Of a stretch of DNA of 64,000 nucleotides, positions 11,582 to 42,946 are shown one piece after another. The translations under genes and the position numbers were made by a program. The DNA lies in contig JAIOYF010000002.1 in the NCBI GenBank assembly GCA_021741245.1, positions 124,001 through 188,000 on the forward strand. The letters run 5' to 3'. Within the stretch, counting starts at the first letter, position 1. Every line of letters starts with the position of its first letter. A model generated the notes under the pieces. It made no database searches, was not told where the DNA came from, and was given only the letters and a program-made list of their open reading frames with translations. The DNA comes from Paracoccaceae bacterium (GTDB lineage Bacteria; Pseudomonadota; Alphaproteobacteria; Rhodobacterales; Rhodobacteraceae).

Positions 11582-11583
11582 GG

Positions 11584-22772: not shown

Positions 22773-23429
22773 TCACAGACTGGCGAGGGTAAGGATATGC
22801 CCCGCCGCCATGATGATCCGCCCTTCGATCCGGTGGCCCACGCCAAAGGGGGGGATCGGATCGCGAAATCTTGCAGTAAAACGGTCACCGTTCAGATCAA
22901 TCGTCATCACCTCGAACCCGAACAGGGTGTGGCTTGTCCGATACTGCGCCTTATAGGCTGCCTCTTTCGCACTGAATGCGGTTTTGGCCAAAAGCCCCCG
23001 CTCGGCCACGGGCGCGCGGTTCAGCGCAATCTGTTCCTCAGGCAACAAGATACTGTCCCAAAGATCACGCGCCAGCGGCGTGGCGGGTTCAAGGTCGATC
23101 CCGATGCCACGCAATTGTCCAACAGGGGCAACCACGGCAAGGCAGTGGCTTGCTGAATGCGTGATCGACCCGATCACACCATCGGTCCAGATCGGGGCCC
23201 TGTCAGACCCGTGCAGAACGGCCATTTCGGGCAGACCAGCGGCCCGCATGGCCACGCGGGCAGCGTGACGCCCGGCAGCAAATTCGCGTAGGCGGGCGGG
23301 AACGGCCCTTGGCAGATCCTCGCCCGCAAGGCGCGGATGATCGGCCAAGGGATCCGCCCAGCCGGCCCCCACCCCATCTGGCACGATCCGGCGCAACGCA
23401 GCCAGAAGGTCAGCCGGGGCGTCAGGCAT
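22773..23429 (-). CDS. 4'-phosphopantetheinyl transferase (EntD/Sfp superfamily)
   Basis: A 218-residue enzyme that would transfer phosphopantetheine from CoA to the carrier-protein serines of the adjacent NRPS and PKS. Motifs are GSITHSASHCLAVVA, the Mg-binding GIGIDLEPA and FSAKEAAYKAQY. The start ATG overlaps the end of the NRPS gene by eight bases, so translation is coupled and function is assigned with confidence. It is EntD-like in length and N-terminal composition. The open frame extends far upstream inside the NRPS gene and is ignored. Confidence 0.9.
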   Translation of the reverse strand: MPDAPADLLAALRRIVPDGVGAGWADPLADHPRLAGEDLPRAVPARLREFAAGRHAARVAMRAAGLPEMAVLHGSDRAPIWTDGVIGSITHSASHCLAVVAPVGQLRGIGIDLEPATPLARDLWDSILLPEEQIALNRAPVAERGLLAKTAFSAKEAAYKAQYRTSHTLFGFEVMTIDLNGDRFTARFRDPIPPFGVGHRIEGRIIMAAGHILTLASL

Positions 23430-26400
23430 CCGTGCCCATCCGGCCCGACCGCATCGCCCGGCGACGTGCCATCGCGTCGGCCCGCGCATCGGCCCGCTGG
23501 CCGCCGGGCGTGTCAGACGGCGCAACCACGGGCGCACGGTCTGCTGCCGTATTCGGGCGCAGGGGTTGCGGGGCGCCCACACGCTGGATCGCAGGCACCT
23601 TGGCCCCATCTGAAAGGTGATCGGCAAGCGCTGCAAGCGTGGGAAAGCGGAAGATATCGGTGATCGACAGCCGTGGCACACCCAGTTTTTCGCGCAACTC
23701 CCGGTGGACCTGAACCGCAAGCAAGCTATGCCCGCCAAGCGCAAAGAAATTGTCCTTTGACCCAACCTTTGGCACGCCCAGAACACGCGCCCAGATCGCG
23801 GCGACCTCGGCCTCGATATCTGATCTGGGGGCCTCAAAGACCTGTGCCTCTGATGGCTTGACAGCAGGCGCAGGCAGGGCCTTGCGGTCCACCTTGCGGT
23901 TTGGGGTCAGCGGAAAGGCGGGCAATGTCACGAAATGCGCGGGCATCATATGGTCTGGCAAAACGGCGGCAAGGGCCGGGCGCAGCGCCTCTTCTTGGGC
24001 TGTGCCAGTGACATAGGCCACAAGGCGCAGATCGCCCGGCGCATCTTCACGCGGCATGACAACCGCTTGGGTCACGCCGGGTTGCGCCTCCAACACGGCT
24101 TCAATCTCACCCAACTCGATCCGATAGCCGCGCAGTTTGACTTGATGGTCAGTGCGGCCAAGGAAGTCGATCTTGCCATCGGCCCTAAGGCGCACCAGAT
24201 CGCCCGTGCGATACATCCGTGCACCCCATGGGCAGGACCGGTCGGGCGTGACAAAGGGATCGGGTTTGAAGCGATCCTCGGTCAGATCAGGGCGCTGCCA
24301 ATAGCCCCGCGTGACGCCATCGCCACCAATCCACAATTCTCCCTCAGTTCCGATGGGAACGGGCGATTGCGTTTCATCCAGCACATACATCTGCTGATTG
24401 GCCAGCGGCGTGCCGATGTTGGTCGTGGCCTCAACCACACCCACCTCTTCCACGCTGGACCAGATCGTGGTCTCAGTCGGGCCATACATGTTCAGGATGC
24501 GCGCGCCGCATGCCTTGCGCAGATCGCTGACTTGCGCACCCGGCAAAGCCTCGCCTCCGACCATGATCGTTTTGACCCCGGCAAGAGCACGGCGCGAGTC
24601 GTCATTCAGCGCGATCATCCGCGCCATCGAGGGCGTGCATTGCAAATGCGTGACCTTGTGCCGGACCAGTTGCGCGGCGATGGACCAGTCATCCTCGGCC
24701 AAGCCACCGGAATTGGCGCGGCGCAGAACCTCGGCCAAGGGGCGCAGAGCCGCAAGCACGGTCTGGGTCTCAATCCCATAGTCGATCAGGCAAGCCACCT
24801 CACCCACGCCAATCGCCTTCAAATCCTCAACCCGCGCCACGGCATCCTCTACGGTGCCAAACAGGCCGGACTCGTCGAAATAGCGCAGGAATGCGAAATC
24901 GAGGATGGCGTCCAGTTCCTCGGGCGACAGGCTTTGGATGTCGATATCCATCGGCTTTGCTACGCCTTGCGGCTTTTTGAACGCCGGAAAGGCCCAAGCA
25001 TATTGCTTGATCAGGGCGGCGGCAGAGCGCAGGTAATCCTTCATCGGGCCCCGCGCCACCTCGCGCGCCTCGTCCCGCGTGGGGGCGATATAGGTGTGCA
25101 GCATCAAGGTCACGGTGCGGCTGGCCGGATCATAGCCCGCCTCACGCAGGGCCTGATGATAAAGCGATATCTTGCCCGCGACCTCATCAATCGTCTGCCC
25201 CAAAAGATGGGTGAGCACATTGGCCCCGATCTGGCCCGCCTCGCGCCATGTGTCCGGGTTGCCTGCGGTCGTGACCCATAGCGGCAGTTCCGCCGACACA
25301 GGGCGTGGTTGGGTTTTCACGGTAAAGGTCCCGCCCGAGGCTGTTGGAAAATCCACCCCCTCACCGCGCCACAGGGCCTGCACCTGACGGGCGGCGGCAA
25401 ACATTGCGGCCTTGTTGTTGGGTGGCGTGTTTTCCGGGCGCAGCACAAAGTCATCGGGGTGCCAGCCGCTGGCAATTGCCATGCCTGCGCGCCCGCCCGT
25501 CAGATTGTCGATCACCGCCCAATCCTCGGCGATCCGGATCGGATGATGCAGGGGCACGACACAAGACCCCGCCCGCACCCCGATATTGCGCGTGACCGCC
25601 GCCACGGCGGCACCGGTGACCGCCGGGTTCGGATAGGGCCCGCCAAAGGCGTGAAAGTGCCGCTCGGGCGTCCAGACGGCAACGAAACCGTTGTCATCGG
25701 CAAATTTAGCACCCTCCAGCAGCAACTCGTACTTCTGCGGGCCGGGGCCACCATCATTGCCCCAGTAATAGATCGAGAAATCCATTTTTTGCGCCGAAGT
25801 GATCTGCCCCCCCGACACCAGCGCGCGGTTTTCATCCGAGGAAATCACCACCTTGAACCCACGCGCCAGCGTCCAGAACAGTTCCAGCACCGATATGTCG
25901 AAAGACATCGAGGTGACGGCCAGCCAGACCCCGGCCTTATCGCCGATGCGCTGATCCATCCCGGTGAAAAAGTTGGTGACATTGCGATGTTCGACCATCA
26001 CCCCCTTGGGACGCCCAGTGGAGCCCGAGGTATAGATCATATAGGCCATATCCGCCGGGGTAACGCCGCTGTGCGGATTGGCCTCCTGCGCCACGGCCAG
26101 GCGCGGGTCACTGTCCAAGGACAGGGTCTGCACATGGCTCGGCAGGCGCGGCGCAAGGTTGCTTTGCGTCACGATCACAGGGCAGGCGCTGTCCTCGATA
26201 TAAAGGGCGGTGCGGTCGGCGGGATAGGCCGGGTCCATCGGCACATAGGCCCCGCCTGCCTTTTGGATCGCAAGCGCGCCGACCAACATCTCGATGCCGC
26301 GGCGGCAATGAAGGCCCACAAGCGTGCCCACACCCACGCCCATTGCCTGCAACACATGCGCCGCACGATTGGCCCGCGCACTAAGCTCGCGGTAGCTCAG

Positions 26401-28050
26401 CGTGATATCCTCAAAACTGACGGCAGGGGCATCGGGGGTGCGGTCAACCTGCGCCTCGAATGCGCTATGCACGCAAAGCGCAAGGTCACGCGGCGCAAGG
26501 GTCTGATTGCCCGCGTGCAGTGCCGCATCCATTTCGGCTGGCAAAAGCGCGGGCACTTGGGCCAGTGGCGTCGCATCGGGCATCCCGGCCATCGTGGTGG
26601 CAATGAATCCAATCCGGGTGGCAAGTGCCTGTGCCTGTTCCAAAGGCAACCGGGACAGATCAGCATAAAGCGCCTGCTTGGTCAGCGTCACCGCCGTGCC
26701 GGGCACGGGGCCATCCACCACTGACAGGCCAAGCGGCGGGGTTTGCAACCCTGCAAGCGCACTGTCGCGGGTCATGAGGTCCAGCGGAAAGCCGGGCACC
26801 GCTTGCGCCATGTCCATGGCCCCGATCAGCGCCGAACGGGCCGCACCAAGGCTGGCGGCCACCTCAATCCGCAGGGGGACCCAGTCGCTGACATATCCCG
26901 CCATGCCCGCCCCGGACGTGGCACAGGCGACATCCCCCAGCGCCTGACCGGACCCACGAAGGGCCGCAAGCGCGATCAGTGGCAGGCTTTGCGCGCCAAG
27001 GTCAAGCGGCAGCGCAATCTTTTGCCAATCTGGCACCCCCGCACCCGTTGCCAAGGCGAGTGGCAGGGGGCGCAGTGTGGACAGCGCATGGCGCAATCGG
27101 TTTTCCTGCGGTGCAACGCGGGACAGAGTTTCGGTCAGGACCGCTGCCTCCTCTCCCGTCAGAAGGGAAAGGTTGCGATCGGTGATAGCAGTTGCGGCAA
27201 GGGGCAGGCCATTGGCCTGACAGGTCAGGCGACCAAAGCGCACGGCCCCCACCCCGCAGGCGACAACCAAGCCATCCTCTGCCACCGACAAGACCGCACC
27301 GGGTGCGCCTTGCCCCGCCGCCGTCTCGGCATGGCCCACGTTCACAACGCCGCCAGACGTGGCAATCTTGGCCGTGGTCAACGGGTTCCAATATCGGCCA
27401 TGATCCAGCGCCCGCACAAGGCGCACCACATGCGTTGCGCTTTGGGTGAAATCGATCCGCCCCATGGCCGCCGGGCGGTCGGCACGCAGATACATCGTGC
27501 GGCGCGACAGATCCTGCGGCAGACGGCGCAAACCGCTTTCCAACTGCCCCATCAACGCGGGGAAGCTTTCAAGGGCGGCCTCATAACACCGGGTGTTCAG
27601 GGTGAGTGCCGTTTCATCAGGGGCAATGTCGAACAGGCGCTGTTCCAGAATATCGCCTTCATCCACGCCGCTTTCCATCAGGTGCCATGTGATGCCATGG
27701 CCCCCTTCACCGTTCAAAAGCGCCCAAACCGGTGCGTTCAGCCCAGCATAGGCGGGCAAGGAGCCATCGTGAAAATTCACCGCCCCTTGGACCGCCCGTG
27801 ACAGGACGGCTTGCGGGATCACGCTCAGATAGGCGATGGACAGAACCCAATCGACTGAGACATCCGCCAACCGTGCAGCCAGCCCAACATCGGGGCGTTC
27901 CACGCGTATACCTTGCGCCACGGCCCAGTCGCGCAGATCATCCCGCCGGGTGACAAGGGCGGCAATGCCATGCCCCCGTGACAGCCAGCCTTCCGCACAC
28001 TGACGGGTCAAGGATTCATTGCCAAAGAACAAGGCGGTCAGATTGCGCAT
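23422..28050 (-). CDS. NRPS: formyltransferase, degenerate C, A interrupted by luciferase-like monooxygenase, PCP
   Basis: A 1542-residue single-module synthetase. Residues 1-290 are a methionyl-tRNA-formyltransferase-like domain with Asn92, His94 (VNFHDGSLPAYAG) and Asp130 (SGVDEGDIL). Residues about 310-510 resemble only the end of a condensation domain and have no HHxxxDG. The adenylation domain starts near 525: A3 TSGSTGRPKG (674-683), A4 FDISVLELF (717-725, with the amino-acid-binding Asp718). From about 756 to 1095 a flavin luciferase-like monooxygenase of the MupA/Atu3671 type is inserted (DFSIYYWGNDGG, WTPERHFHAFGGPYPNPAV). The A domain resumes near 1113: A5 NMYGPTETT (1188), A7 YRTGDL, A10 NRKVDRKAL. 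A carrier domain follows (Ser1442 in GGHSLL). The start follows GAGGAAG. No thioesterase is present. Confidence 0.9.
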   Translation of the reverse strand: MRNLTALFFGNESLTRQCAEGWLSRGHGIAALVTRRDDLRDWAVAQGIRVERPDVGLAARLADVSVDWVLSIAYLSVIPQAVLSRAVQGAVNFHDGSLPAYAGLNAPVWALLNGEGGHGITWHLMESGVDEGDILEQRLFDIAPDETALTLNTRCYEAALESFPALMGQLESGLRRLPQDLSRRTMYLRADRPAAMGRIDFTQSATHVVRLVRALDHGRYWNPLTTAKIATSGGVVNVGHAETAAGQGAPGAVLSVAEDGLVVACGVGAVRFGRLTCQANGLPLAATAITDRNLSLLTGEEAAVLTETLSRVAPQENRLRHALSTLRPLPLALATGAGVPDWQKIALPLDLGAQSLPLIALAALRGSGQALGDVACATSGAGMAGYVSDWVPLRIEVAASLGAARSALIGAMDMAQAVPGFPLDLMTRDSALAGLQTPPLGLSVVDGPVPGTAVTLTKQALYADLSRLPLEQAQALATRIGFIATTMAGMPDATPLAQVPALLPAEMDAALHAGNQTLAPRDLALCVHSAFEAQVDRTPDAPAVSFEDITLSYRELSARANRAAHVLQAMGVGVGTLVGLHCRRGIEMLVGALAIQKAGGAYVPMDPAYPADRTALYIEDSACPVIVTQSNLAPRLPSHVQTLSLDSDPRLAVAQEANPHSGVTPADMAYMIYTSGSTGRPKGVMVEHRNVTNFFTGMDQRIGDKAGVWLAVTSMSFDISVLELFWTLARGFKVVISSDENRALVSGGQITSAQKMDFSIYYWGNDGGPGPQKYELLLEGAKFADDNGFVAVWTPERHFHAFGGPYPNPAVTGAAVAAVTRNIGVRAGSCVVPLHHPIRIAEDWAVIDNLTGGRAGMAIASGWHPDDFVLRPENTPPNNKAAMFAAARQVQALWRGEGVDFPTASGGTFTVKTQPRPVSAELPLWVTTAGNPDTWREAGQIGANVLTHLLGQTIDEVAGKISLYHQALREAGYDPASRTVTLMLHTYIAPTRDEAREVARGPMKDYLRSAAALIKQYAWAFPAFKKPQGVAKPMDIDIQSLSPEELDAILDFAFLRYFDESGLFGTVEDAVARVEDLKAIGVGEVACLIDYGIETQTVLAALRPLAEVLRRANSGGLAEDDWSIAAQLVRHKVTHLQCTPSMARMIALNDDSRRALAGVKTIMVGGEALPGAQVSDLRKACGARILNMYGPTETTIWSSVEEVGVVEATTNIGTPLANQQMYVLDETQSPVPIGTEGELWIGGDGVTRGYWQRPDLTEDRFKPDPFVTPDRSCPWGARMYRTGDLVRLRADGKIDFLGRTDHQVKLRGYRIELGEIEAVLEAQPGVTQAVVMPREDAPGDLRLVAYVTGTAQEEALRPALAAVLPDHMMPAHFVTLPAFPLTPNRKVDRKALPAPAVKPSEAQVFEAPRSDIEAEVAAIWARVLGVPKVGSKDNFFALGGHSLLAVQVHRELREKLGVPRLSITDIFRFPTLAALADHLSDGAKVPAIQRVGAPQPLRPNTAADRAPVVAPSDTPGGQRADARADAMARRRAMRSGRMGTDA

Positions 28051-28070
28051 ATCAACTTCCTCTGCCGCCG

Positions 28071-29072
28071 TTACTGGGCGGGCTTCGGTTCCACAGCAGG
28101 CTTTTTGTCGGGTAAAAGGGATCGACCTGCTGTGCCAAGGGCATGGGTGGTCATGTCGATCAGGAAATACGGTGGGTCGATAAAACTGCGTCGCTGGATC
28201 ACGGCACGGGTGCGCCAGATCAGCCCCCCGGCCACATGGGCAAGGGTGGCAAGGGCGGCATAGGCGGTGCCCTTGGTTTTGGTGTAGTAATAGAGCCGCG
28301 AGTCCAACCAAAAGCGCGGAATCCGCGCCCAAGTTTTCATGCCCGTCGAGGCAGAACCAATATGGGCCACGCGGCTTTCGGTGACATAATCGGTGGGCCA
28401 ACCCGCCCGCGCCGCCCGCAGGCAAAGCTCGGTTTCTTCAAAATACAAAAAGAACCTCTCATCAAACAGGCCGATCTGATCCAGCACCGATTGCCGCATC
28501 ATAAGACTGGCACCTGCCAACCAATCCACGGCTTGGGTTTGGTGGGGCAAGGGCGGTGCCACGACGGCGTGGCGCAACAAGCGGCTGATCGGGCCAAGCC
28601 GTGCGGCCTGCTCAAATTCCCCCGCAATGGACGGAAAGCGAAAGGCGGTATGATGCGGATCGCCGTCGGGGCCATGAATATGGCTGCCAGCAAAGCCTGT
28701 CGTGGGGTTTGCCTCCAGATGCGCAAGCAGGGCCTTGATCGCCTCGGGCGCGGGAAAAGCATCTGAGTTGAGGATATAGGCATAATCCGGCGGCCCGCCA
28801 TCTGGCAGTCCCGCCCGGATGCCAACGTTATTGCCAGCGCCAAAGCCACCATTGCGGCCTGACTGAATAACCCGCACATGTTGCGGCCCCTTGTCCCATC
28901 CACGTGTTGCAACATCATGGCAAAGCCGCTCGAACGAGCCGTCTTGCGAGTCATTGTCGACGATCACCAAACCGCCCGAGACACCTTCCAGCGCCACAAG
29001 TGCGGCTTCGGTGGCGCGCAGGGTCATCTCGGCGGTGCGCCAGTTCAGGATTACGGTCAGGACAGTTGCCAT
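28071..29072 (-). CDS. glycosyltransferase family 2 between PKS and NRPS genes
   Basis: A 333-residue GT-A-fold glycosyltransferase, rhamnosyltransferase-like. The N-terminus TVLTVILNWRTAEMTLRA and LVIVDNDSQDGS bind the nucleotide sugar; later come GGFGAGNNVGIRAG, ILNSDAFP (DxD region) and LYFEETELCLRAARAGW, the GT2 catalytic block. It starts five bases after the PKS stop and ends 20 bases before the NRPS start, so it belongs to the same transcript. It probably glycosylates the assembly-line product or the glycan partner; which is unknown. Confidence 0.9.
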   Translation of the reverse strand: MATVLTVILNWRTAEMTLRATEAALVALEGVSGGLVIVDNDSQDGSFERLCHDVATRGWDKGPQHVRVIQSGRNGGFGAGNNVGIRAGLPDGGPPDYAYILNSDAFPAPEAIKALLAHLEANPTTGFAGSHIHGPDGDPHHTAFRFPSIAGEFEQAARLGPISRLLRHAVVAPPLPHQTQAVDWLAGASLMMRQSVLDQIGLFDERFFLYFEETELCLRAARAGWPTDYVTESRVAHIGSASTGMKTWARIPRFWLDSRLYYYTKTKGTAYAALATLAHVAGGLIWRTRAVIQRRSFIDPPYFLIDMTTHALGTAGRSLLPDKKPAVEPKPAQ

Positions 29073-29077
29073 CCCCG

Positions 29078-32000
29078 TTACTCCGCCGCTGTCGCAAGGT
29101 CGGGGCGGTCGATCCGCGCGCCTTGCACCGCAGGACTTTCGGCGTTTTGGATGATGCCCTTCAGATGGCTGGCCAGAACCCGCACATTGGGCTCCAAGAC
29201 CATGGAGTCGTGATCCCCCGGCACCTCAATCACCTGCAAGGCAGGGGCAAAGCGAGTCAGATCATTGTCGGCGTAAACATATTCGCGCGCGGACGATACC
29301 CACGCCCCACCCGACACCTGCCAACGGCGATCAAGCGGCGGGCGGAACAAGACGGTCTGGCCCGCACGGGCCGACATCTCATAAACGGGCAACGCCGACC
29401 GAAAGGCCGCCTCAATCGCGGCATTGTTGAACTGGGCCGGGTCTGTGGCGGTATCGGCCCGTGCGGCAAGTCCCCGCTTATAGGCCTGTTTCTCGCGCCA
29501 CCAGCGGGCAAAGAACGACGGCCCTTCAGCCATAACCTCGGCCAGTCGGATGCGCAGTTTGTCGCCGCGTGACAGGGCGGGTCGCATCGGGATGGGCGTG
29601 TCCAGCAACACCAAAAGCGGCACGTCCTCGCCCGCCGCCTGAAGCTGCCGGGCGATTTCCCACGCGATCAGCCCGCCGCCCGAAAAGCCGCCAAGCAGAT
29701 AAGGGCCATGAGGCTGCACCTGCCGCATCTCGGCAATATAATCGCGCGCGGCATCCACAAAGGTCATATGCGGCTCGGCATCACCATAAAGCCCCCGCGC
29801 CTGAAGGCCGTAGAACGGCCTGTCCCCACCCAAAAGCTGGGCCAGATGGCGCAGGTTCAAGACGTTGCCAAACATCCCCGCCACAAGGAAAAACGGCGTC
29901 TTTGCCCCGCCTTCGCCCCGGTGCATCGGCACGATATGGGTAAAACGACGTTGCGGCGCGCGCGAGGGGGCCTCAGTCGCCGATGTCTCGTCAGGCGTGC
30001 CGATTTGATCCATGATCAGTTGGGCACAGGCCTTGATGCTTGGCGCCTCAAACAGGATCGAGATCGGGAAATCCACCCGATAGGCTTTTTTCACCATGGC
30101 AAACAATCGCACCGCAATCAGGCTATGGCCGCCAAGGTCAAAAAAGCTGTCCTCCACCCCCACTTTCGCGACGCCCAGCAAATCTTGCCAGAAGCCGACA
30201 AGGGTGCGCTCGATATCATTGCGCGGCTCGACATAATCGGTGTCCAGATCCGGGCGCTCAAAACTGGCACCACTGGTCTTTGCAGCCTCGGCCAAGGCGG
30301 TCTGGCGGATCAGCGCGGGCAGGTTCAGCGACGAGACGATGATCTGGCTTTGCCCCATGGCGACGGCACGGGAAAAGGCGGCGGCCCCTTCGTCGGGGCG
30401 TATTCCTTGGGAAAAGGCGTGGAGCAGACGCTCTTCTGCGGGCGACATCGGTTTGGCTTGCAGATCGTCAAACTCCAACATGCGCGGATCAGGCGGTGCA
30501 AAGCTGAGCGCACCATCAAGGCGGCGAATGGTAAAGCCCGAAACCTCGATACAAACTTCGCCCTCGGGTGTGCACAGCGTCACGTCAAACACGGCAGTCG
30601 GGCGGCTGGCGGCATTGGGGGCCGCGTTGCGCACAAAGCTGACGATCTGCGCGGGCAAGGGGCAATGCACCCGGATGCAGGCATATGACACGGGCACCCA
30701 AAGGTGGCCGGGATCATAGCCCGCGATCAGGCCCATGGCCCAGCCTGTCGCAAGGTCCATCAATGCGGGGTGGATAAGCCAGCCCTGATCCACATCAGAC
30801 ACAAAAGCCGGGGGCAAGGACAGATGGGCCAGACCGATCGCCCCTTCCCCATCGCCGGAAATGGCGCGGCTTCTAAGCACCCGCCACCGCGACCCAAACC
30901 TCAGATGCGCCTCTTGCTGGCTGCGCAGGCCATTGCCGGTTTCGGGCGGGCGTAAGCGGTCGGCAATCGCGGTCACATCAATGCGGGGGCCTGATGAGTG
31001 AAGTGGCAAAATCCGCGCCGTGGCATGTTGCACCCACCCCGTGCGCCCCTTGTGGATCAGGGCCGAGTGCAGATCAAAGACATAGCCCTCATCGCTGCGG
31101 GTCAGGCGGGCGCGGACGGGGCGCGCCTCATCCGCCGCCAAATCAAGCGCGCGGAAAAACGTCAGATCGCGGATTTCAAAGGCCGTGCCCTCGGCTTGGG
31201 CCTGCATCGCCTCGGCCATGATTTCCAGATAGCCGGTGCCGGGGATCAGGGCCGTGCCATCCTTTGTGCGGTGCCCATCCAAAACCCAGCGGTCGTGGGC
31301 ATAGTTTGCGGTGAATATGCGGTTGCCGTTGCGGTCAAACCCGGCCTCATCCAGCATCGGTGCCGCGATGGGAAGGCGCGGTGCCTCCGGGCGGCCCGTA
31401 CGGTCGGCCAATGCCTCGGCGGCCATACCAACCCCGGTCCATATCCCCCAGTTCAGCGCGACCACGCGGGTCTTGCCGCCAGCCCGATGCTTGGCAAAGG
31501 CGTTCAGATATTCATTGGCCGCAACATAATCAATTTGCCCGGCTGGCCCGGTGACCGTGGAGGTTGAGGAAAACAGCACCAGCAAGGCAAGACTGCCATC
31601 GGGGAACAAGCTGTTCAGAACCTGCGTGCCATGCAGTTTCGGTGCAAACACCTCTTCCACCTCGGCCGGAGTTTTCAACAAAAGCGGACCGTCATCCACC
31701 ACACCTGCGGCGTGGATCACGCAATGAACGGGGCCAAAGCGCGCCTCGCCCGCCGCCTTGGCGGCCTGCATCTCCACCACATTGGCCACGTCGGCTTGGG
31801 CGACAAAGACCTTTGCGCCCAAGGCCTCCAGCCGTTGAACGGCCAGAATGCGGCGGACAATCGGATCAGACGGATCAGACACCGCCAAAAGCGCGGGCCA
31901 GTGCGGCGGGTCGGGCAATTTGCGCCGCGCGATCAAAGTAATGCTGACGCCGTGGCGGCGCACCAGATCCTCGGCCACGGTCAGGCCTATGCCGCCAAAG

Positions 32001-35000
32001 CCCCCCGTGATCAGCACATGGGCCCCTTGCGGAAGGTCAAGCGGATCCTCGGGCAGGCGCGCTGGCTTCAGCACTTGTTCAAAGCGGCGATCCCCGCGCA
32101 GGGCGGCCATAGCAGGGCTGTCAGACAGCGCCTCTTCCAGCACCGCGTCCACCAGTGCTGCAAGCTGCGCATGTGTCGCCTGCGCCTGCGGCAGGACCAG
32201 ATCAAGGGTCGAGAAGGTCAACCCCGGCACCTCACGCGGGATCACACGGGCCGGGCCAAGGATCATGGCCTTTTCCGGATAGGCCAAGCCTTCGCCCCGC
32301 ACCTGCGCGGCCCCGGTTGTGACGGTCGTCAGATGGATGGGGCGGGGCAGATTTTCCTCGGCCATGGCCTGCGCCAGAAACATCAGCGAATAAAAGCCTT
32401 GCTCGATATTGCGGTGCAAAAAGCTGGAGCCGGGGCGGAAGCTTTCGCGCGCCGTCGCCAGCCACAGATGCACGATGCGGCCCGGCGACAGGCCCCGCGC
32501 GACAAGGTCACGGATCAAGGCATCATAGCCATCGCGCCCGCGTTCGGGCGATAGGATATAGCCACCCTCGCCATCGCGGGCAAAGGCATCGCCAGTTCGC
32601 ACGGTGATGACGCCATGGCCCAAGGCGCGCAGGCGTTTGGTCAGGGCCGCGCCCAAACCCGCCTCATCGACAAAAATCAGCCAGCTTTGCGCCGGGGCAT
32701 CGGGCACATCGTCCCGTTCATACCCGGCCACGGCAGGCTTCCAATGGGTGCGCCAGCCCCAATCCGAAAGATCATCCACCCGCTCTGGCAGGGCCTCGAC
32801 CTCAACCGTCGCGGTCTGTCCGGGGGCGATAAAATAGGGCTTTTTCTGAAAGGCATAGGTTGGCAAGGGCACACGGTTGCGCCGCCCCTCACCCCAGATC
32901 GGTTCCCAATCAACGGGCACGCCACAGGCCCAAAGACGGGCAATCGTGGCAACGTGCCATGCGTCATCCGCCATCTTTTGATCCGGATGGCGCAGGGCGG
33001 GGATCACCTGCCCGCCCGCCACACCATTGGCCTGCGCCAGCGACGACAGCGCCCGTCCCGGACCCATCTCTAGATACACCCGACCCGGCGTTTCGGTCAG
33101 GGTTTGCAGGCAGGCGCGGAAATTGACCGTGTGGCGCAGGTGCTGCACCCAATAGTCCGGGCTGGTCGCCTGTTCTGACGTCAGCGCCACGCCAGTTTGG
33201 TTGGAGATGATCGGCAAGGTCGGGGCATGCAGCGGGATCGACGCCAAGAACGCACCAAAACGGTCAAGGATCGGCTCCAGCATCCGGCTGTGCGCGGCGA
33301 TGTTGATCGGCACGCGCTGCGTCTCGACCCCTGCTGCGGCCAATGTCCGGGTCAGCGCATCAAGGGCATCATCGGGGCCGGAAACCACACAAAGCCCCGG
33401 CGCATTGACCGAAGCCATGTCCAAATCCCCGGTCAGATAGGGGCGCAGATCCGCGTCCGACAGGGGAACCGAAACCATGCCCCCCGGCGCGATGGTGTCG
33501 AACAACTGCCCGCGCAGATGCACAAGGCCGATGCAATCCTCAAAGCTCATCACGCCTGCCAAGGCGGCGGCAGTATTTTCGCCCATCGAATGGCCGACAA
33601 GGGCGGCAGGCTGCACGCCCCAGCTGATAAACAACTGCGCCAAGGCATATTCGGTGATCATGATCAGCGGCAGTTGGACCGAGGGTTTCTTTAACCGCTC
33701 ATTCGCCGCCGTCTCTGCTCCCGCTATAGGCAGCCACAATGCGCGGATGTCGTAATCCAGCATCGGCTCCAGCACCGACAGGCCTTGATCCATCCAATCG
33801 GCAAAGACGGGTTCGGTTTCATAGAGATCCCGCGCCATGCCCGCATATTGCGCGCCACCGCCGGGGAACATGAACACAACCTCGGGGTCATCGCCCAGCC
33901 AGTCGTGATTGAACACACGGCGGGTATCGGCCCCCTCCAGCAGATCGGCGGCCTCGGAATGGCTGCCCGCCACCAGAACCCGCCGCTTGTCAAAGGCGCG
34001 GCGGCCCTGTTTCAGGGTAAAGGCCACATCGGCCAAGGGCTGTTCAGGATGCGCCCGCAGATGCGCGGCCAATCGCGCCGCCTGCCCATCCAGCGCCGCC
34101 TTGGACTTGGCCGAAATCACGATGGGCTGAAATGGCCAATCAGAGGCGTCAGAGGCGGCCCGCGCGGGCGCTTCTTGCAAAACGGCATGGGCATTGGTGC
34201 CGCCGACGCCAAGGCTGTTGACCCCGGCGCGCAAAGGGGCTGGCCCCTGCCAATCGGTCAGCCGGTCATTCACGCGGAAGGGCGAGGTTTCAAAGTCAAT
34301 CGCGGGATTCGGGGCCTCATACCCCAGGGAGGGGGGCAATTGACGGTGATGCAGGCTGAGCGCCACCTTGATCAGGCTGGCCACCCCTGCGGCGGTATCC
34401 AGATGGCCGATATTGGTTTTGACGCTGCCAAGACGGCAATGGCCCAGGCCTTCCCCGCTTTGGCCAAAGGCCGCCGTCAGGGCCGCCACTTCGATCGGGT
34501 CGCCCAGATAAGTGCCGGTGCCGTGGCATTCGACATAAGATACCGTGTCTGAACTGATGCCCGCCAGCGCCTGCGCCTCGGCCACACAGGCGGCCTGACC
34601 ATCCACCGACGGGGCCAGATACCCCGCCTTGGCCGCGCCATCATTGTTGACGGCGCTTGCCTTCAGGATTGCCCAGATATGATCGCCATCGCGGATCGCA
34701 TCCTTGGCCCGGCGCAACACCACACATCCGGCACCCGAGCCAAAGACCGTGCCTTGGGCGCGATGGTCAAAGGCATGGCAATGGCCATCGGGCGACAGGA
34801 TCTCGCCCTCGGTGTAAAGATAGCCATGGGCATGGGGCAATTCGATGGTGACCCCCCCCGCAAGGGCCATGTCGCATTCGCCATTCAACAGGGCCTGTGT
34901 GGCGTAATGCACGGCGACAAGGCTGGTCGAACACGCGGTCTGCACATTGATGCTGGGGCCCTTGAGGTCAAAGATATGGCTGACGCGGGTGGCCAGAAAA

Positions 35001-35515
35001 TCCTTGTCATTGCCCGTATGGCGCAGCAGGAACATGCCCGTCTGATCAACCAGATCGCGGTTGGAGCACAGGTTGAAGTAAAAATAGCTGCCCATCCCAC
35101 AACCGGCCCAAACCCCAATCGGGCCGGGGAAGGTTTCGGGCGGGTGACCTGCGTTTTCCAAAGCCTCCCACGCCACCTCAAGGAAATGGCGGTGCTGCGG
35201 GTCAAGGATCGCGGCCTCTTTTGGCGAAAAGCCAAAGAAATCGGCATCAAAATTCTGAAACCCATCCAGAACCGCGGCAGAGGGCACATAGTTGGGCTTG
35301 GTCAACCGCGCACGGGTTTCGCCAACGGCCAGCAGGTCCTCTTCGGAAAGAACCCGGATCGACTCCACCCCGTTGCGCAGGTTTTCCCAATACTGTGCAA
35401 TGTCCGCCGCCCCCGGAAGGTGCGCAGCCATGCCGACAATTGCAATATCGGTATCAGAAATCTGATCTGAGCCACGGGTAATGGGCATGGAACCTGTCAC
35501 TGGCAAACGGAACAT
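29078..35515 (-). CDS. type I polyketide synthase: KS-AT-KR-DH-ACP-TE
   Basis: A 2145-residue modular PKS. KS spans about 20-450 with Cys195 (TACSTS), His331 (ECHGTGT) and His371 (NIGHLDTAAG). AT spans about 545-850 with Ser643 (GHSMGE) and His742 (AHSRMLEP); its extender choice is not clear from these motifs. A KR follows (structural half from about 920; GGFGGIG at 1171-1177; Tyr1330, Asn1334). A DH-type hotdog domain comes after the KR (His1415; Asp1587 in HPALMDLATG). ACP has Ser1798 (GGHSLI). A C-terminal thioesterase has Ser1945 (GFSGGG), Asp1972 and His2102. The order KR before DH is unusual. An alternative start at 35488 would remove nine residues. It is 64 bases behind the GT4 gene. 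Confidence 0.9.
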   Translation of the reverse strand: MFRLPVTGSMPITRGSDQISDTDIAIVGMAAHLPGAADIAQYWENLRNGVESIRVLSEEDLLAVGETRARLTKPNYVPSAAVLDGFQNFDADFFGFSPKEAAILDPQHRHFLEVAWEALENAGHPPETFPGPIGVWAGCGMGSYFYFNLCSNRDLVDQTGMFLLRHTGNDKDFLATRVSHIFDLKGPSINVQTACSTSLVAVHYATQALLNGECDMALAGGVTIELPHAHGYLYTEGEILSPDGHCHAFDHRAQGTVFGSGAGCVVLRRAKDAIRDGDHIWAILKASAVNNDGAAKAGYLAPSVDGQAACVAEAQALAGISSDTVSYVECHGTGTYLGDPIEVAALTAAFGQSGEGLGHCRLGSVKTNIGHLDTAAGVASLIKVALSLHHRQLPPSLGYEAPNPAIDFETSPFRVNDRLTDWQGPAPLRAGVNSLGVGGTNAHAVLQEAPARAASDASDWPFQPIVISAKSKAALDGQAARLAAHLRAHPEQPLADVAFTLKQGRRAFDKRRVLVAGSHSEAADLLEGADTRRVFNHDWLGDDPEVVFMFPGGGAQYAGMARDLYETEPVFADWMDQGLSVLEPMLDYDIRALWLPIAGAETAANERLKKPSVQLPLIMITEYALAQLFISWGVQPAALVGHSMGENTAAALAGVMSFEDCIGLVHLRGQLFDTIAPGGMVSVPLSDADLRPYLTGDLDMASVNAPGLCVVSGPDDALDALTRTLAAAGVETQRVPINIAAHSRMLEPILDRFGAFLASIPLHAPTLPIISNQTGVALTSEQATSPDYWVQHLRHTVNFRACLQTLTETPGRVYLEMGPGRALSSLAQANGVAGGQVIPALRHPDQKMADDAWHVATIARLWACGVPVDWEPIWGEGRRNRVPLPTYAFQKKPYFIAPGQTATVEVEALPERVDDLSDWGWRTHWKPAVAGYERDDVPDAPAQSWLIFVDEAGLGAALTKRLRALGHGVITVRTGDAFARDGEGGYILSPERGRDGYDALIRDLVARGLSPGRIVHLWLATARESFRPGSSFLHRNIEQGFYSLMFLAQAMAEENLPRPIHLTTVTTGAAQVRGEGLAYPEKAMILGPARVIPREVPGLTFSTLDLVLPQAQATHAQLAALVDAVLEEALSDSPAMAALRGDRRFEQVLKPARLPEDPLDLPQGAHVLITGGFGGIGLTVAEDLVRRHGVSITLIARRKLPDPPHWPALLAVSDPSDPIVRRILAVQRLEALGAKVFVAQADVANVVEMQAAKAAGEARFGPVHCVIHAAGVVDDGPLLLKTPAEVEEVFAPKLHGTQVLNSLFPDGSLALLVLFSSTSTVTGPAGQIDYVAANEYLNAFAKHRAGGKTRVVALNWGIWTGVGMAAEALADRTGRPEAPRLPIAAPMLDEAGFDRNGNRIFTANYAHDRWVLDGHRTKDGTALIPGTGYLEIMAEAMQAQAEGTAFEIRDLTFFRALDLAADEARPVRARLTRSDEGYVFDLHSALIHKGRTGWVQHATARILPLHSSGPRIDVTAIADRLRPPETGNGLRSQQEAHLRFGSRWRVLRSRAISGDGEGAIGLAHLSLPPAFVSDVDQGWLIHPALMDLATGWAMGLIAGYDPGHLWVPVSYACIRVHCPLPAQIVSFVRNAAPNAASRPTAVFDVTLCTPEGEVCIEVSGFTIRRLDGALSFAPPDPRMLEFDDLQAKPMSPAEERLLHAFSQGIRPDEGAAAFSRAVAMGQSQIIVSSLNLPALIRQTALAEAAKTSGASFERPDLDTDYVEPRNDIERTLVGFWQDLLGVAKVGVEDSFFDLGGHSLIAVRLFAMVKKAYRVDFPISILFEAPSIKACAQLIMDQIGTPDETSATEAPSRAPQRRFTHIVPMHRGEGGAKTPFFLVAGMFGNVLNLRHLAQLLGGDRPFYGLQARGLYGDAEPHMTFVDAARDYIAEMRQVQPHGPYLLGGFSGGGLIAWEIARQLQAAGEDVPLLVLLDTPIPMRPALSRGDKLRIRLAEVMAEGPSFFARWWREKQAYKRGLAARADTATDPAQFNNAAIEAAFRSALPVYEMSARAGQTVLFRPPLDRRWQVSGGAWVSSAREYVYADNDLTRFAPALQVIEVPGDHDSMVLEPNVRVLASHLKGIIQNAESPAVQGARIDRPDLATAAE

Positions 35516-35579
35516 CCTTTTGGCTAAATACCAAACTTGACGAAATTAAGGAATGCGGCGTGTGATCCCTTTGGGCGGA

Positions 35580-36899
35580 TCACGATATTCCAAAGAAATC
35601 CGGCTTTGATGCCGCCCGATGTGTCACCCAATCATAAACCCCAACCACCTGTTCAGCCTTGCGCTGCCATGTAAAAAAACCCTCCACACGGGCGCGGGCG
35701 GCCTCGGCCTTTTGGGCAACCTCAGCCGGATGATCCGCAAGGTGGATCAGTTGGGCAGCAAGCCCCGCAATGACTGCATCACGCGGGCCAATCGGCACTT
35801 TGAACCCGGTGGTTTCGGTGACCAGTTCGGCGGGCCCCGCGTAATCAATAACCACGGGGCACAGGCCCAGTGCCATCGCCTCCAACACCACGCCGCCGCC
35901 AAATTCCCGGATCGAGGGAAAGGTCAGCACGGTACAAGATGACGCGATATCTTGCACCTGTTCATGCTTTTTCCAGCCGTGAAAGCGCACGGCTTCGCCA
36001 AGTTCCGCCGCTTGGCTTTGCAAAGGACCAGCCATCGGTCCATCCCCGATGATATCCAGCGTCATCCGCCCCGAGGCCAACAGGGGGGCCGCAGCGGAAA
36101 GCAGCATATCCACCCCTTTGAGCGGCACCAACCGCCCGATGAAACAGGCCCGCAACGGCCCCCCAGCCAAGGTTGCAGCATGATCCGCCCGCCGCCAAAA
36201 CCGGGCCGGATCAATCGCATTCTCGGGCAGATAGATGCAACGCCCGTGGTGTTTTGGCGGGATATCCCGCAGCGTCTGGCGGGAGCCTGCAAGGATCGCA
36301 TCAGCCCGCAAGGTGCCTTGCCGACCCGGCAAGGCGCGATACAGGCCGCGCAGCTTTGACAGCCATTCGTTCTCTTTCGCCATCTCGGCCTCAAACCCCT
36401 TGGGCCAAGGCACGCCGCCATTGATGAGCCCCAGCACGAATGGCACGCCCGCGCGGCGGCATTTGGCGGCGATGGGGCTTTGCTGCACGGGCGATAGCGG
36501 GGTGATGCGGTGAACGATATCGAACGCGCCCGCCGCAATGCGCGGGCCGAACTGCCTCCAGACCAGATGCTCGAAGAATGGATAGCTGATGGTGTTGATG
36601 GCCTGCTGGATCGTCCATCCCCGCCCTGCCCCCCCCGACAACTTCTCGCCCAGTTTCCATAAGGGACGGGCAAGGGCTTCGGAATCAATCGCCGTAAAAT
36701 CCTGCCCTTCAACAAGCCCCGCCCTTAAGAAGGCATCGCGGTTGCGTATTTGGGTCACGATATGCACATCGGCCACCTCGGCCAAAGCCCGCGCCATGGA
36801 CCAGCCCACAAGCGGAACCGAAACCCATTCGGGATTTGCCGCCTCGGCCACGACAAGCACGCGGTACGGGCGGGCAGGTGGGGAAGGCGCTTGGGTCAA
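35580..36899 (-). CDS. glycosyltransferase family 4
   Basis: A 439-residue GT-B-fold glycosyltransferase. The C-terminal half carries the family 4 marks: ACFIGRLVPLKGVDMLL, a DIIGDGP block, and the donor-binding EFGGGVVLEAMALGLCPVV with the E-x7-E pair. The N-terminal half has a membrane-face basic/hydrophobic patch (GGAGRGWTIQQAINTISYPFFEHLVWRQFG is near it). It starts inside the stop of the O-antigen ligase-like gene (four-base ATGA overlap) and leads into the PKS gene, linking glycan and polyketide functions in one operon. Confidence 0.88.
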   Translation of the reverse strand: MTQAPSPPARPYRVLVVAEAANPEWVSVPLVGWSMARALAEVADVHIVTQIRNRDAFLRAGLVEGQDFTAIDSEALARPLWKLGEKLSGGAGRGWTIQQAINTISYPFFEHLVWRQFGPRIAAGAFDIVHRITPLSPVQQSPIAAKCRRAGVPFVLGLINGGVPWPKGFEAEMAKENEWLSKLRGLYRALPGRQGTLRADAILAGSRQTLRDIPPKHHGRCIYLPENAIDPARFWRRADHAATLAGGPLRACFIGRLVPLKGVDMLLSAAAPLLASGRMTLDIIGDGPMAGPLQSQAAELGEAVRFHGWKKHEQVQDIASSCTVLTFPSIREFGGGVVLEAMALGLCPVVIDYAGPAELVTETTGFKVPIGPRDAVIAGLAAQLIHLADHPAEVAQKAEAARARVEGFFTWQRKAEQVVGVYDWVTHRAASKPDFFGIS

Positions 36900-38302
36900 A
36901 GGATCGTCCTGTTTGGGTTGAAGGCAATGTCAAAATCACGACGCGTCTTTTCTTGGCGCGCAGCGGCAAGCGCCTCGGCATAGCCGGTCAGTGCCCCGGC
37001 CAGCAGCCATGTAAAGGGGATAAGGGTGTCATTTGGCAGCATGTCGAACAGGTTGGCGGCAAGGATCAGCGCCAATGTGCTGGCATAGGGGGACACCTCC
37101 GCCCCCTTAACATGGCGTGCCTCGCGCCAGATCAGAAAGACCGGAAGGGCCAGCAAACCAAATTCAGCGATATAGCCCAACCAGCCATAAACGCCCAAGG
37201 TGATCACCCAACCACCATCCGCGATGACACTGATCTGGCCCGAGATTGGATCATGCAAAAGGCTGCGCCCATAGCCCCCCCACCCAAACCAAGGGCGCTC
37301 GGCCGCATGGGCCAACAACAAGTCCTCATTCGTGATGCGAAAGGCCAAGGATAGGCCCCGCTCTTCATTCATCTTCGTTGCAAAGGCCAAGATATCATCA
37401 ACCGGCACCAGATGCAGACCCCGGAGCAACGGATAGGTGATCACGACCGCCGCCATCACCGCCGCGATGGTCAATTGCAATCGTCTTGGTGCAATTAAAA
37501 TCAGCGGACCAATCAGCAGCGCATAGACCCAGACACCCGCACTTCGGCAGATCAGCACGACAAAGATCAGGTAAAGCATCACAAGAAACTGTTTGTGCCG
37601 AACAGCGGCGGGACCAATGCGGAACAGCGTGATGGAGGCCAAAAGGCACATCAGCGCAAAGAAGGCGACCCAAAGCGCATGGGGCATGAACACAAAGGGG
37701 CGATACCCGCCAAAGCGAACGGCCTGCGAAAAATCATGCTGAAAAAATCCATAAATCATCAGGTTGATCTGTGGCGACATCCGCGCCTCCCACGCCATCG
37801 GCAGGGAATAGATCACCCCCGCCGTGACAAGACCGACCAGAACAGCCCGCTGCGCCTTTGGCGTTGCCAGATACTTGCGCGCCATGAAAAAGGGCAAAAG
37901 CACGATGAATTGCCCGGCGACGGCAGCAAGCGAGTCATAGATGCGCATGGCCGGCAAACTGGCATGCTCAAAAAACATCCGGTCCCCGTTACTCAACACA
38001 GTGGCAAAGGGGCTCAGGACGTAAAGCATGATCAACATCCGCGCCAAAAGCGAGGACGGCCACAGGCTGAACCGCTCTTTGAGCAAAAAGACGACGGCGG
38101 CAGCGGCGGCTAGGTTGGGGATCGAGTATTTGTCAAAGTCGGGAACCATCGGCAAATCGATGGCTGTCAGCGGGGGCAAAACCATGTAGCCGCCAAGAAT
38201 TGTCCAGACCAAGGCACGTGCCGGGTCGAGGCGCGTGTAAAGCGCCCATGCGACCACCGGCCACAGGTACAACATCATATAGGCAATCTGGTTACCGGGC
38301 AT
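36896..38302 (-). CDS. O-antigen ligase/polymerase-like membrane protein
   Basis: A 468-residue inner-membrane protein with about ten to twelve hydrophobic segments and a large periplasmic loop. The block FRITNEDLLLAHAAERPWFGWGGYG matches the conserved periplasmic segment of the Wzy_C/O-antigen ligase group (Arg, Trp and a Pro-x-x-Gly-x-Gly pattern). Such proteins polymerise repeat units or attach a glycan to a lipid or protein acceptor. It is the first gene of the minus-strand operon that continues into the PKS and NRPS, and is divergent from the WecG-type gene. Confidence 0.8.
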   Translation of the reverse strand: MPGNQIAYMMLYLWPVVAWALYTRLDPARALVWTILGGYMVLPPLTAIDLPMVPDFDKYSIPNLAAAAAVVFLLKERFSLWPSSLLARMLIMLYVLSPFATVLSNGDRMFFEHASLPAMRIYDSLAAVAGQFIVLLPFFMARKYLATPKAQRAVLVGLVTAGVIYSLPMAWEARMSPQINLMIYGFFQHDFSQAVRFGGYRPFVFMPHALWVAFFALMCLLASITLFRIGPAAVRHKQFLVMLYLIFVVLICRSAGVWVYALLIGPLILIAPRRLQLTIAAVMAAVVITYPLLRGLHLVPVDDILAFATKMNEERGLSLAFRITNEDLLLAHAAERPWFGWGGYGRSLLHDPISGQISVIADGGWVITLGVYGWLGYIAEFGLLALPVFLIWREARHVKGAEVSPYASTLALILAANLFDMLPNDTLIPFTWLLAGALTGYAEALAAARQEKTRRDFDIAFNPNRTIL

Positions 38303-38466: not shown

Positions 38467-39255
38467 ATGTTAAGGGGAGGAATCCCTTACCCGAGCGTAC
38501 CAGTGCAGTTCCGCTTTAACGATCATAATATTGTAGTGAACATAAGCGACCGCGAAGCGCTATTGACTGATATTCGCAAGAGATTTCGGGGCAGGCAGGG
38601 TTTCGCCTTGGCCACAATCAATCTCGACCACCTGGTTAAACTGCACCGGTCATCCACCTATCGCGCAGCCTATGCCAAGCAAGACCTTGTGGTGGCGGAT
38701 GGAAATCCGATTGTCTGGCTTTCGCGACTCGCCGGACACAGGGTTGATTTGATCCCCGGGTCAGATCTGCTGCTCCCCATGCTGGAACTCGCTGCGATCG
38801 AAGGCGTTCCTGTTGGCTTTTTCGGATCGACGCGGCAGGCGCTTGCCGATGCAGCAGACGTTCTGCGCAAGACTATAAAGGGTCTCAATATTGCATGGAC
38901 TGGTTCGCCAGAGATGGGCTTCGATCCAGAGGGGGATGAGGCGAAAACCGCCCTTGAGCAAATGCAGGCCGCTGGCGTCGTCTTATGCATCTTGGCGCTG
39001 ACAGCCCCCAGACAAGAGGGATTTGCCGCCTTTGGGCGTTCCATAGCCCCCGGAATTGGGTTTTGCAGCTTTGGGGCCGGGCTTGATTTTGTTACCGGCC
39101 GCCAAATCCGCGCACCGCGTTGGGTTCAGGCCCTTGCGATGGAATGGCTTTGGCGCGCCTTGTCATCGCCCAGACGGATGATCCCGCGTTATGCAGCCTG
39201 CGCCGCCATCTTGCCGCGCGAAGCCATTTCTGCCCTGCGCCAACGTGGCAAATAG
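38467..39255 (+). CDS. WecG/TagA/CpsF family glycosyltransferase
   Basis: A 262-residue glycosyltransferase of family GT26. Marks are ATINLDHLVKLHRSSTYRAAY, VVADGNPIVWLSRLAG, LPMLELAAIEGVPVGFFGS and LCILALTAPRQEGFA. The family adds the second sugar (for example ManNAcA or a glucuronic-type sugar) to a lipid-linked intermediate at the inner membrane. It is divergent from the O-antigen ligase-like gene across 164 bases, and convergent with the GT2 gene at 39279. Codon usage is slightly more AT-rich near its start than in neighbours. Confidence 0.88.
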   Translation: MLRGGIPYPSVPVQFRFNDHNIVVNISDREALLTDIRKRFRGRQGFALATINLDHLVKLHRSSTYRAAYAKQDLVVADGNPIVWLSRLAGHRVDLIPGSDLLLPMLELAAIEGVPVGFFGSTRQALADAADVLRKTIKGLNIAWTGSPEMGFDPEGDEAKTALEQMQAAGVVLCILALTAPRQEGFAAFGRSIAPGIGFCSFGAGLDFVTGRQIRAPRWVQALAMEWLWRALSSPRRMIPRYAACAAILPREAISALRQRGK

Positions 39256-39278
39256 CGGCCCTTGATCCAACAGCGCAC

Positions 39279-40298: not shown

Positions 40299-40579
40299 CG
40301 TCTTTGCTTTTCACCAAAATACACCTCGAACCATAGGGAATTCTGCCTTGAATGGAAAGCGCAGTGCATCCTTCCGTCAGGGCAAACGCTTCCATTTCGG
40401 GGTGTTATCTGGTAGACGAAAAGATAACTGGGCGGGGGCCTGGCGATTCTGACGGTGATAGGAGCATGTTGTTTCTGGCCATCACATTTGGATGAACCTG
40501 GTCGCGGCCTGCTGCAAGGCGGGTGTAATTTAACTTGTACCGACCAATGGGTCGCGGCTTGCAGGAGTGTGCCATTCAA
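40299..40579. promoter_or_regulatory. divergent intergenic region between GT2 and BY-kinase genes
   Basis: The 281-base gap separates the starts of the GT2 (minus) and the BY-kinase (plus). It must hold promoters for both transcripts. An AGGAG sits 12 bases before the chosen kinase ATG. I could not single out a convincing -35/-10 pair by eye. Confidence 0.4.
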
Positions 40580-41515: not shown

Positions 41516-41518
41516 CCC

Positions 41519-42862: not shown

Positions 42863-42883
42863 GGCACACGGAAATCGGAATGA

Positions 42884-42918: not shown

Positions 42919-42946
42919 CTTATCAGGGCGCAGGCTCTTGATCCGT

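Follow-up and report, generated by a model that had tools for sequence, protein, structure and literature searches.

A putatively glycine-primed NRPS-PKS line interleaved with glycosyltransferase genes in a Paracoccaceae operon and its possible role in exopolysaccharide acylation

We analysed a 64,000-nucleotide stretch of DNA from a Paracoccaceae bacterium (GenBank assembly GCA_021741245.1, contig JAIOYF010000002.1, positions 124,001 to 188,000 of the forward strand; hereafter, the window). A six-gene minus-strand operon, which starts at position 38302 and ends at position 22773 with a phosphopantetheinyl transferase (PPTase) gene, places the genes of a nonribosomal peptide synthetase (NRPS) and a polyketide synthase (PKS) among glycosyltransferase (GT) genes. 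We lean towards regarding it as an exopolysaccharide operon with a dedicated two-module line, whose glycine-primed C4 acyl group would be made for, and probably attached to, a polysaccharide of the Wzx/Wzy type. Megasynthases are usually taken for makers of free small molecules, and polysaccharide genes found near them for mere neighbours. Here, polysaccharide loci across a family, and those of some Burkholderiales, retain a single-module PKS and a starter NRPS with a GT2 gene between them. If their product is carried by the polymer, assembly-line chemistry would add to it groups beyond the reach of sugar metabolism, and the acyl group would be predictable and testable.

Operon structure and conservation

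The genes of the operon are, from its start to its end:

36896..38302, minus strand: Wzy/O-antigen-ligase-like membrane protein, first gene of the operon (468 residues, hydrophobic; label from position and orthologues)
35580..36899, minus strand: GT4, EpsH-like (PF00534, E 1e-23; NF041879 EPS_EpsH, 462 bits, below its cut-off of 800)
29078..35515, minus strand: type I PKS of one module, with ketosynthase (KS), acyltransferase (AT), ketoreductase (KR), dehydratase (DH), acyl carrier protein (ACP) and thioesterase (TE) in this order (Pfam domains)
28071..29072, minus strand: GT2 between PKS and NRPS, called GT2core in what follows (PF00535, E 5.6e-10)
23422..28050, minus strand: NRPS starter module, with formyltransferase (FT), truncated condensation (C) domain, adenylation (A) domain with an embedded monooxygenase (MOx) and peptidyl carrier protein (PCP) (ATG at 28050)
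22773..23429, minus strand: Sfp/EntD-type PPTase (PF17837 and PF01648, over cut-off)

All six open reading frames described in an earlier note on this DNA are present, and the spacing it gave is exact to the base: the polymerase-like and GT4 genes overlap by 4 bases, gaps of 64, 5 and 20 bases separate GT4 from PKS, PKS from GT2 and GT2 from NRPS, respectively, and the NRPS and PPTase genes overlap by 8 bases. The six genes are presumably co-transcribed; within the operon, neither terminator-like sites (18 versus 17.0 in shuffled sequences) nor promoter-like sites (3 versus 4.3) are in excess. The identities of the PPTase, NRPS, GT2, PKS and GT4 were confirmed by Pfam and NCBIfam. The product of the first gene matched no Pfam or NCBIfam family, and its structure model was too poor to use (predicted local distance difference test, pLDDT, 47); orthologues occur at the same position in many related loci. 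We call it Wzy-like by its hydrophobic sequence, its place and these orthologues, by which a ligase and a polymerase are indistinguishable here. GT2core has 51 positions that are at least 97% identical among 133 aligned sequences, and the genome as a whole has only one PF01648 match besides the PPTase.

A search of 198 genomes of the family with the NRPS at E 1e-100 yielded a match in 73. The panel compared below comprises 65 loci from 63 of these 73 genomes and omits ten genomes whose matches were fragmentary or partial (G022, G028, G085, G097, G114, G118, G147, G155, G158 and G166); its stretches are about 20 kb long, four of them being cut by contig ends, with 42 kb for the window itself. 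Control windows of 19.7 kb were taken from 20 of the NRPS-positive genomes, and genes of the related loci, whose DNA is GC-rich, were called with codon usage. The PKS, GT2 and NRPS genes are consecutive in 59 of the 65 panel loci, the others being L139, L143, L146, L160, L171 and L190, the last of which is truncated at a contig end. By label families that were trained on 80 loci (the best 80 of 151), five of which recur in the panel and make the counts partly circular, a Wz-type gene is present in 61 of the 65 loci and a glycan gene beyond GT2core in 63; the control windows, which serve as the check, gave glycan families in 0 of 20. A PPTase gene was found in 53 panel loci, and a linked gene for the SGNH-like protein described below in 24.

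In a larger, biased set of 99 loci, 85 have the three genes in immediate succession, the gaps having medians of 1 and 2 bases. Among 83 loci with enough flank, five have no glycan gene besides GT2core by the label models (L130, L132, L136, L139 and L146) and seven have no GT2core (L129, L130, L131, L132, L139, L143 and L146); the models miss some glycan genes, since L130 was scored as lacking them and yet has Wza and Wzz/Wzc by Pfam. Over 101 loci, the distance correlation with the NRPS was 0.893 for the PKS, 0.664 for the GT2 and 0.595 for the PPTase, with 0 of 499 permutations as high in each case; these Mantel values ignore shared ancestry. The PKS-GT2-NRPS arrangement is more than chance, and the link between glycan genes and assembly line that had been proposed from the window is borne out by the panel counts and the controls. 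The earlier note had named NRPS and PKS genes without any glycan gene nearby as one case that would speak against this link. Such loci do exist, namely L139 and L146 (2 of the 65 panel loci) and L132 outside the panel; the remaining 63 panel loci are not of this kind.

Two observations concern individual loci. Genome G126 has two NRPS copies, one of which (L144:1032-10038) has lost two formyltransferase residues and is adjoined by an extra C-A-PCP-TE NRPS. Contigs labelled Nocardioides marinus (L077) and Curvibacter (L035) carry Rhodobacterales-like loci, through contamination, misbinning or transfer.

A phylum sample of 398 genomes, the window's own included, gave 16 NRPS matches at 1e-200. 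Outside the family but within the class, divergent homologues adjoin polysaccharide genes too: in L129, Wzx, GT4 and WecG accompany a divergent PKS and NRPS, in L130, Wza and Wzz/Wzc do so, both loci being without GT2core, and in L131 (extended as L244) an FkbM methyltransferase and a Wzz-ATPase protein lie behind the PKS and a GT4 on the other side. In a quick tree with SH-aLRT support only, L131, L132 and L139 form a branch of their own (SH-aLRT 100). Acquisition by transfer is suggested for the Burkholderiales loci, which fall inside the Rhodobacterales branch at forks with SH-aLRT values of 82-93. The Hydrogenophaga loci L050, L051 and L089 carry a GT4 and a second NRPS downstream of the PPTase (in L051, with AMP-binding, PCP, C, A, PCP and TE domains), and this second NRPS may extend or replace the acyl group.

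In many loci, the PPTase gene is followed by one for a protein that carries a GHSL motif and is referred to here as SGNH-like. At 1e-40 it was found in 38 of the 198 genomes, and all 38 are among the 73 NRPS-positive ones (hypergeometric 1e-20, a value that likewise ignores shared ancestry). In the window's own genome, its gene is unlinked to the window (contig C1, L214:6505-10936) and belongs to a satellite operon that also encodes a GT2 and a large protein whose start is SGNH-like. Ten loci were read in which this gene is separated from the NRPS gene by more than 150 kb or by lying on a different contig: nine keep the order SGNH-like gene, large-protein gene, GT2 gene, and in the tenth (L215) the SGNH-like gene is accompanied by a GT4 at a distance of 7.5 kb. 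Dependence on the NRPS without linkage argues for a shared pathway. The best SGNH-type Pfam matches of the satellite protein are below cut-off (E 0.055-0.079) and the GHSL motif is kept; the protein may act like an SGNH hydrolase. Among solved structures, the large satellite protein has no relative at E 1, and the SGNH-like protein no convincing one.

Domains of the assembly line

The NRPS consists of the following parts:

27163..28050, minus strand: formyltransferase domain, residues 1-296 (PF00551/PF02911)
26491..27159, minus strand: C-terminal half of a C domain, residues 298-520, without the active-site motif (hhalign)
25801..26463, minus strand: A domain, first part, about residues 530-750 (first stretch of PF00501)
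24727..25779, minus strand: flavin luciferase-like MOx inside the A domain, residues 758-1108 (TIGR04020)
23893..24681, minus strand: A domain, second part, residues 1124-1386 (TIGR01733/PF13193)
23614..23808, minus strand: carrier domain, residues 1415-1479 (PF00550)

NRPS residues 1-540 were modelled with a pLDDT of 93.6. The formyltransferase in this model (residues 4-295) matches ArnA and Fmt, with Z 26.9 and an rmsd of 2.4 A over 283 residues for ArnA (1z7e). N92, H94 and D130, which we take to be its catalytic N-H-D triad, are kept in 140, 139 and 139 of 141 other NRPSs. About 220 residues that follow have no Pfam match; hhalign against six C-domain stretches from related loci, one of which (L134) was probably mis-cut, matched them to the C-terminal half of a C domain at 94.7% (local) and 96.7% (global). 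Solved relatives of this linker covered only its last stretch, and in the fold comparison the formyltransferase filled the match list, so that the linker was barely probed. The HHxxxDG motif is absent from 142 of 142 NRPSs compared. Without this motif, and with no more of a C domain than its C-terminal half, the NRPS can only start a chain; judged by its domains, it is able to load and formylate, and has no working condensation domain.

TIGR04020 matches the NRPS with 469.6 bits (cut-off 244.45) between the two parts of the A domain, the insertion lying between the motifs FDIS and YGPTE, presumably a4 and a5. The closest solved relative of the MOx domain is PuwE (6ket, E 3e-101). In the PuwE paper, an aminotransferase and a monooxygenase are suggested to yield jointly a 3-amino-2-hydroxy acyl chain (PMC4219810). 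The A-domain code of the window's NRPS, whose positions were read by motif and not via a GrsA alignment, is DILQMGMIWK and equals DILQLGMIWK at nine of ten positions. Among the 142 NRPSs, the former occurs in 87 and the latter in 31 (118 together); of the code positions, seven never vary and one more is either I or V. According to a survey of A domains, four MOX-bearing glycine domains all carry DILQLGMIWK (PMC12283262). Further papers describe hydroxylation of the alpha carbon by MOx in glycine A domains (PMC10204066, PMC11342130) and FT-A(Gly)-PCP as a loading module, for example of phthoxazolin and its relatives (PMC5764310). The carrier serine S1442 is kept in 141 of 141 other NRPSs. We infer that glycine is the substrate of the NRPS, and its MOx domain probably hydroxylates the carrier-bound glycine at the alpha carbon.

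The single module of the PKS is made up of:

34319..35452, minus strand: KS, residues 22-399 (PF00109/PF02801)
33059..33877, minus strand: AT, residues 547-819 (PF00698)
31436..32020, minus strand: KR, residues 1166-1360 (PF08659)
30515..31333, minus strand: DH, residues 1395-1667, after the KR (PF21089/PF14765)
30014..30205, minus strand: ACP, residues 1771-1834 (PF00550)
29171..29890, minus strand: TE, residues 1876 to about 2115 (PF00975; Pfam match 1876-1978)

The KR precedes the DH, and there is no enoyl reductase (ER) domain. In an alignment of 132 PKSs, the window's included, KS residues C195, H331 and H371 are present in 131, the remaining one being a gap, and AT residues S643 and H742, KR residues Y1330 and N1334, DH residues H1415 and D1587 and the ACP serine S1798 in all 132. 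A KR serine is replaced by alanine in 37 of these PKSs, the window's not among them. The TE serine S1945 is found in 129, and the rows of the other three (L131, L132 and L139) end before the TE at the ends of their stretches. As far as these residues tell, the catalytic sites of the window's PKS are intact. The formyltransferase domain, the MOx within the A domain, the PKS thioesterase and the unlinked satellite operon are features beyond the first reading of this DNA.

The order in which the two megasynthases would act can be judged from the divergent loci. In L131, L132 and L139, the NRPS gene stands directly before its PKS gene in the same direction. The PKS of L131/L244 is KS-AT-KR-DH-ACP-TE with the TE Ser and His present, and in L132 and L139 (extended as L245 and L246) KS-AT-KR-DH-ACP runs on into C-A-PCP-TE in one protein. 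This gene order and the run-on support a line with the NRPS first and the PKS second. The longer lines are found at L245:7223-16459 and L246:1043-10249. A PKS feeding the NRPS was considered and rejected: the NRPS cannot condense and has no TE, and the PKS ends in one.

Proposed product and its alternatives

In the pathway that we propose, the PPTase would arm the carrier domains, and the NRPS would adenylate and load glycine, N-formylate it and probably alpha-hydroxylate it. The PKS would add one malonyl unit, followed by reduction and dehydration, to give a C4 acyl product of the 4-formamido-crotonyl or 4-formamido-4-hydroxy-crotonyl type. The thioesterase would release this group, most likely to a sugar in a repeat unit that is lipid-linked and that the GT4, the interleaved GT2 and neighbouring glycosyltransferases have assembled, and Wzx/Wzy-type proteins would export and polymerise this unit. 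The satellite operon probably tailors the decorated polymer outside the cytoplasm. Transfer of the acyl group to a sugar is proposed on indirect evidence: glycan genes are constantly nearby, the operon contains a GT2, and there is a precedent in Pks13, whose thioesterase hands an acyl chain to trehalose.

Two products had been put forward in the earlier note. We favour, as the best reading, a polysaccharide that bears a peptide-polyketide group: the link to glycans is strong, and attachment to the polymer is our supposition. A glycosylated lipopeptide, or any lipopeptide, is not supported: there is one PKS module and one NRPS module with a single A domain, the line starts with a formyltransferase, no C domain works, and nothing in the operon (no fatty acyl-AMP ligase or fatty-acyl starter) activates a fatty acid.

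Several points speak against a polymer-bound acyl group. The system has no known product; no part of the PKS, NRPS or PPTase need bind a sugar, plain hydrolysis by the TE is conceivable, and no acyl-attaching enzyme was identified. In L132 and L139, this starter and first extension occur with no glycan gene recognised around them. None was recognised near the L146 genes either (the SGNH-like gene of that genome is on a different contig, 7.5 kb from a GT4), and L136 has only GT2core. The SGNH label is based on the GHSL motif and sub-threshold Pfam matches. Finally, some of the 73 NRPS matches may not be orthologues, for example those in G085 and G097 (43-44% over part of the query).

A small diffusible glycoconjugate, in which the GT2 would glycosylate the C4 amino acid after its release, or else a longer product, and which would be exported alone and share only its regulation with the polysaccharide, is unlikely in our estimation. 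It would fit the GT2 being the glycan gene tightest to the pair, as its place in the 59 consecutive panel loci indicates, and also L136, where GT2, PPTase and SGNH-like genes accompany the pair with no other recognised glycan gene, L035, which besides GT2 and an SGNH-like gene has only a GT4, and the second NRPS with a TE in L144 and the Hydrogenophaga loci. However, it leaves aside the Wz-type genes of 61 of the 65 panel loci, which are present even in divergent loci that have no GT2core (L129, L130 and L131/L244).

We also think it rather improbable that the line makes a free unglycosylated metabolite (a signal, a metallophore or similar), the polysaccharide genes being neighbours through a shared genomic island. 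L146, which has no glycan gene nearby, would fit such a case, and so would L132 and L139, since in these two the same starter and PKS module continue into C-A-PCP-TE with no glycan gene recognised nearby; L139 has in addition a protein with aminotransferase, C-A-PCP and TE. By their domains, L132 and L139 have a product that differs from the window's, and they probably make free metabolites. But L132 and L139 form their own branch and their chain is longer by domain content, whereas in 85 loci a GT2 gene lies between the megasynthases at median gaps of 1-2 bases, and such glycan genes occur in 0 of 20 control windows.

RkpA of rhizobia has been proposed to make the lipid anchor of a polysaccharide, and an iterative PKS doing the same here, next to polysaccharide genes and with no ACP or KR anomaly that would forbid iteration, is very improbable: a saturated anchor was rejected for want of an ER domain, it would be unusual for a lipid to start from formyl-glycine, and the homologous starter and PKS module open a longer line in L132 and L139.

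The polymer-bound acyl group may also be stated in a far-reaching form, to which we give little credence at present. About one-third of the sampled genera of one large family would have an exopolysaccharide class whose own NRPS-PKS acylates the repeat unit, with the PKS thioesterase as the sugar acyltransferase. The N-formyl-alpha-hydroxyglycine head would be a carbinolamide able to break down to an aldehyde (4-oxocrotonyl), giving the polymer a latent cross-linker or metal ligand that the co-inherited SGNH-like proteins would unmask or trim.

Neighbouring genes and comparison with known systems

The genes upstream of the operon are listed below.

38467..39255, plus strand: WecG/TagA-type glycosyltransferase, divergent neighbour (PF03808, E 4.5e-38)
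39279..40298, minus strand: GT2, EpsD-like (PF00535, E 2.5e-13; NF041875, 44 of 370 bits, below cut-off)
40535..41515, plus strand: Wzc/CpsD-like ATPase (PF10609/PF01656)
41519..42862, plus strand: Wzz chain-length regulator (PF02706, E 2.2e-7)
42947..43747, minus strand: initiating sugar-phosphate transferase (PF02397, E 6.5e-58)
44293..45597, plus strand: GT4 (PF13692, E 4.1e-34)

Exopolysaccharide genes had been thought to flank the operon; this holds for the upstream side (38467-45597) and not for the downstream side, which carries genes for an S49 protease, a short-chain dehydrogenase/reductase and uvrC. These three genes are on the same strand but were rejected as members of the system, since the S49 gene directly follows the operon in only 6 of 80 related loci. 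The WecG-type divergent neighbour was found again in many related loci. As for the parts of a Wzx/Wzy-type locus, the initiating transferase, Wzz, kinase-like ATPase and glycosyltransferases are all present in the window; no Wzx flippase or Wza was found among the scanned window genes, and PF13440 and PF02563 have matches on other contigs of the genome. About 15 kb upstream, an acyltransferase-3 membrane protein (PF01757, 53432-54547) is a candidate O-acylation enzyme. By eye, positions 55874-56989 encode a luciferase-family-like oxidoreductase, unrelated in position to the NRPS monooxygenase domain, and positions 8239-14970 contain an ABC transporter set of the branched-chain-amino-acid type and a dioxygenase-like gene, which might serve the uptake and breakdown of aromatic compounds.

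These genes resemble an eps locus of the Wzx/Wzy type, presumably that of Myxococcus, in the sugar transferase, Wzz, Wzc-like protein, WecG, GT2 and a GT4 close to EpsH. They differ from it in that the EpsH, EpsA and EpsD models match the window's proteins below their cut-offs, and we know of no PKS or NRPS in the Myxococcus eps system. In mycobacterial glycopeptidolipid and sulfolipid/mycolate systems, NRPS or PKS genes do stand beside glycosyltransferase genes; the products are lipids, and there is no Wzy-type polymerisation. The Pks2 and Pks13 models fall far short of their cut-offs with the window's proteins (594 of 2100 and 564 of 2400 bits). D-alanylation by DltA-DltC offers a parallel in the use of adenylation and a carrier domain for acylating a surface polymer: a single A domain and a carrier acylate teichoic acids with the membrane acyltransferase DltB and without a PKS. 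DltA models match below cut-off here, and there is no DltB-like gene among the six genes of the operon.

The starter NRPS can be set beside the modules of myxothiazol and melithiazol assembly, which we take to be MtaG and MelG. These share with it an MOx within a glycine-type A domain between a4 and a5, and differ in that hydroxylation results in chain cleavage to an amide, with a terminal thioesterase coming next (PMC10204066). The window's NRPS has instead an N-terminal formyltransferase and a broken C domain, and stands at the start of the chain. Its A-domain code closely matches that of the MOX-bearing glycine domains (PMC12283262). Phthoxazolin (PtxE), oxazolomycin and conglobatin lines likewise have F-A-PCP with glycine followed by a malonyl-adding PKS module, and go on to an oxazole via an OzmP/CongE-type enzyme and through many modules (PMC5764310). 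In the window, the embedded MOx is added to such a formyl-glycine loader, and the line ends after one PKS module with a TE; the six operon genes include none of the OzmP/CongE type, at which no search was aimed. Searching the open-licence literature by title and the start of the abstract, we found no paper describing a PKS or NRPS inside a polysaccharide locus. Judged from sequence, then, the parts of the system are of known kinds, and what appears to be new is their conserved, polysaccharide-linked combination.

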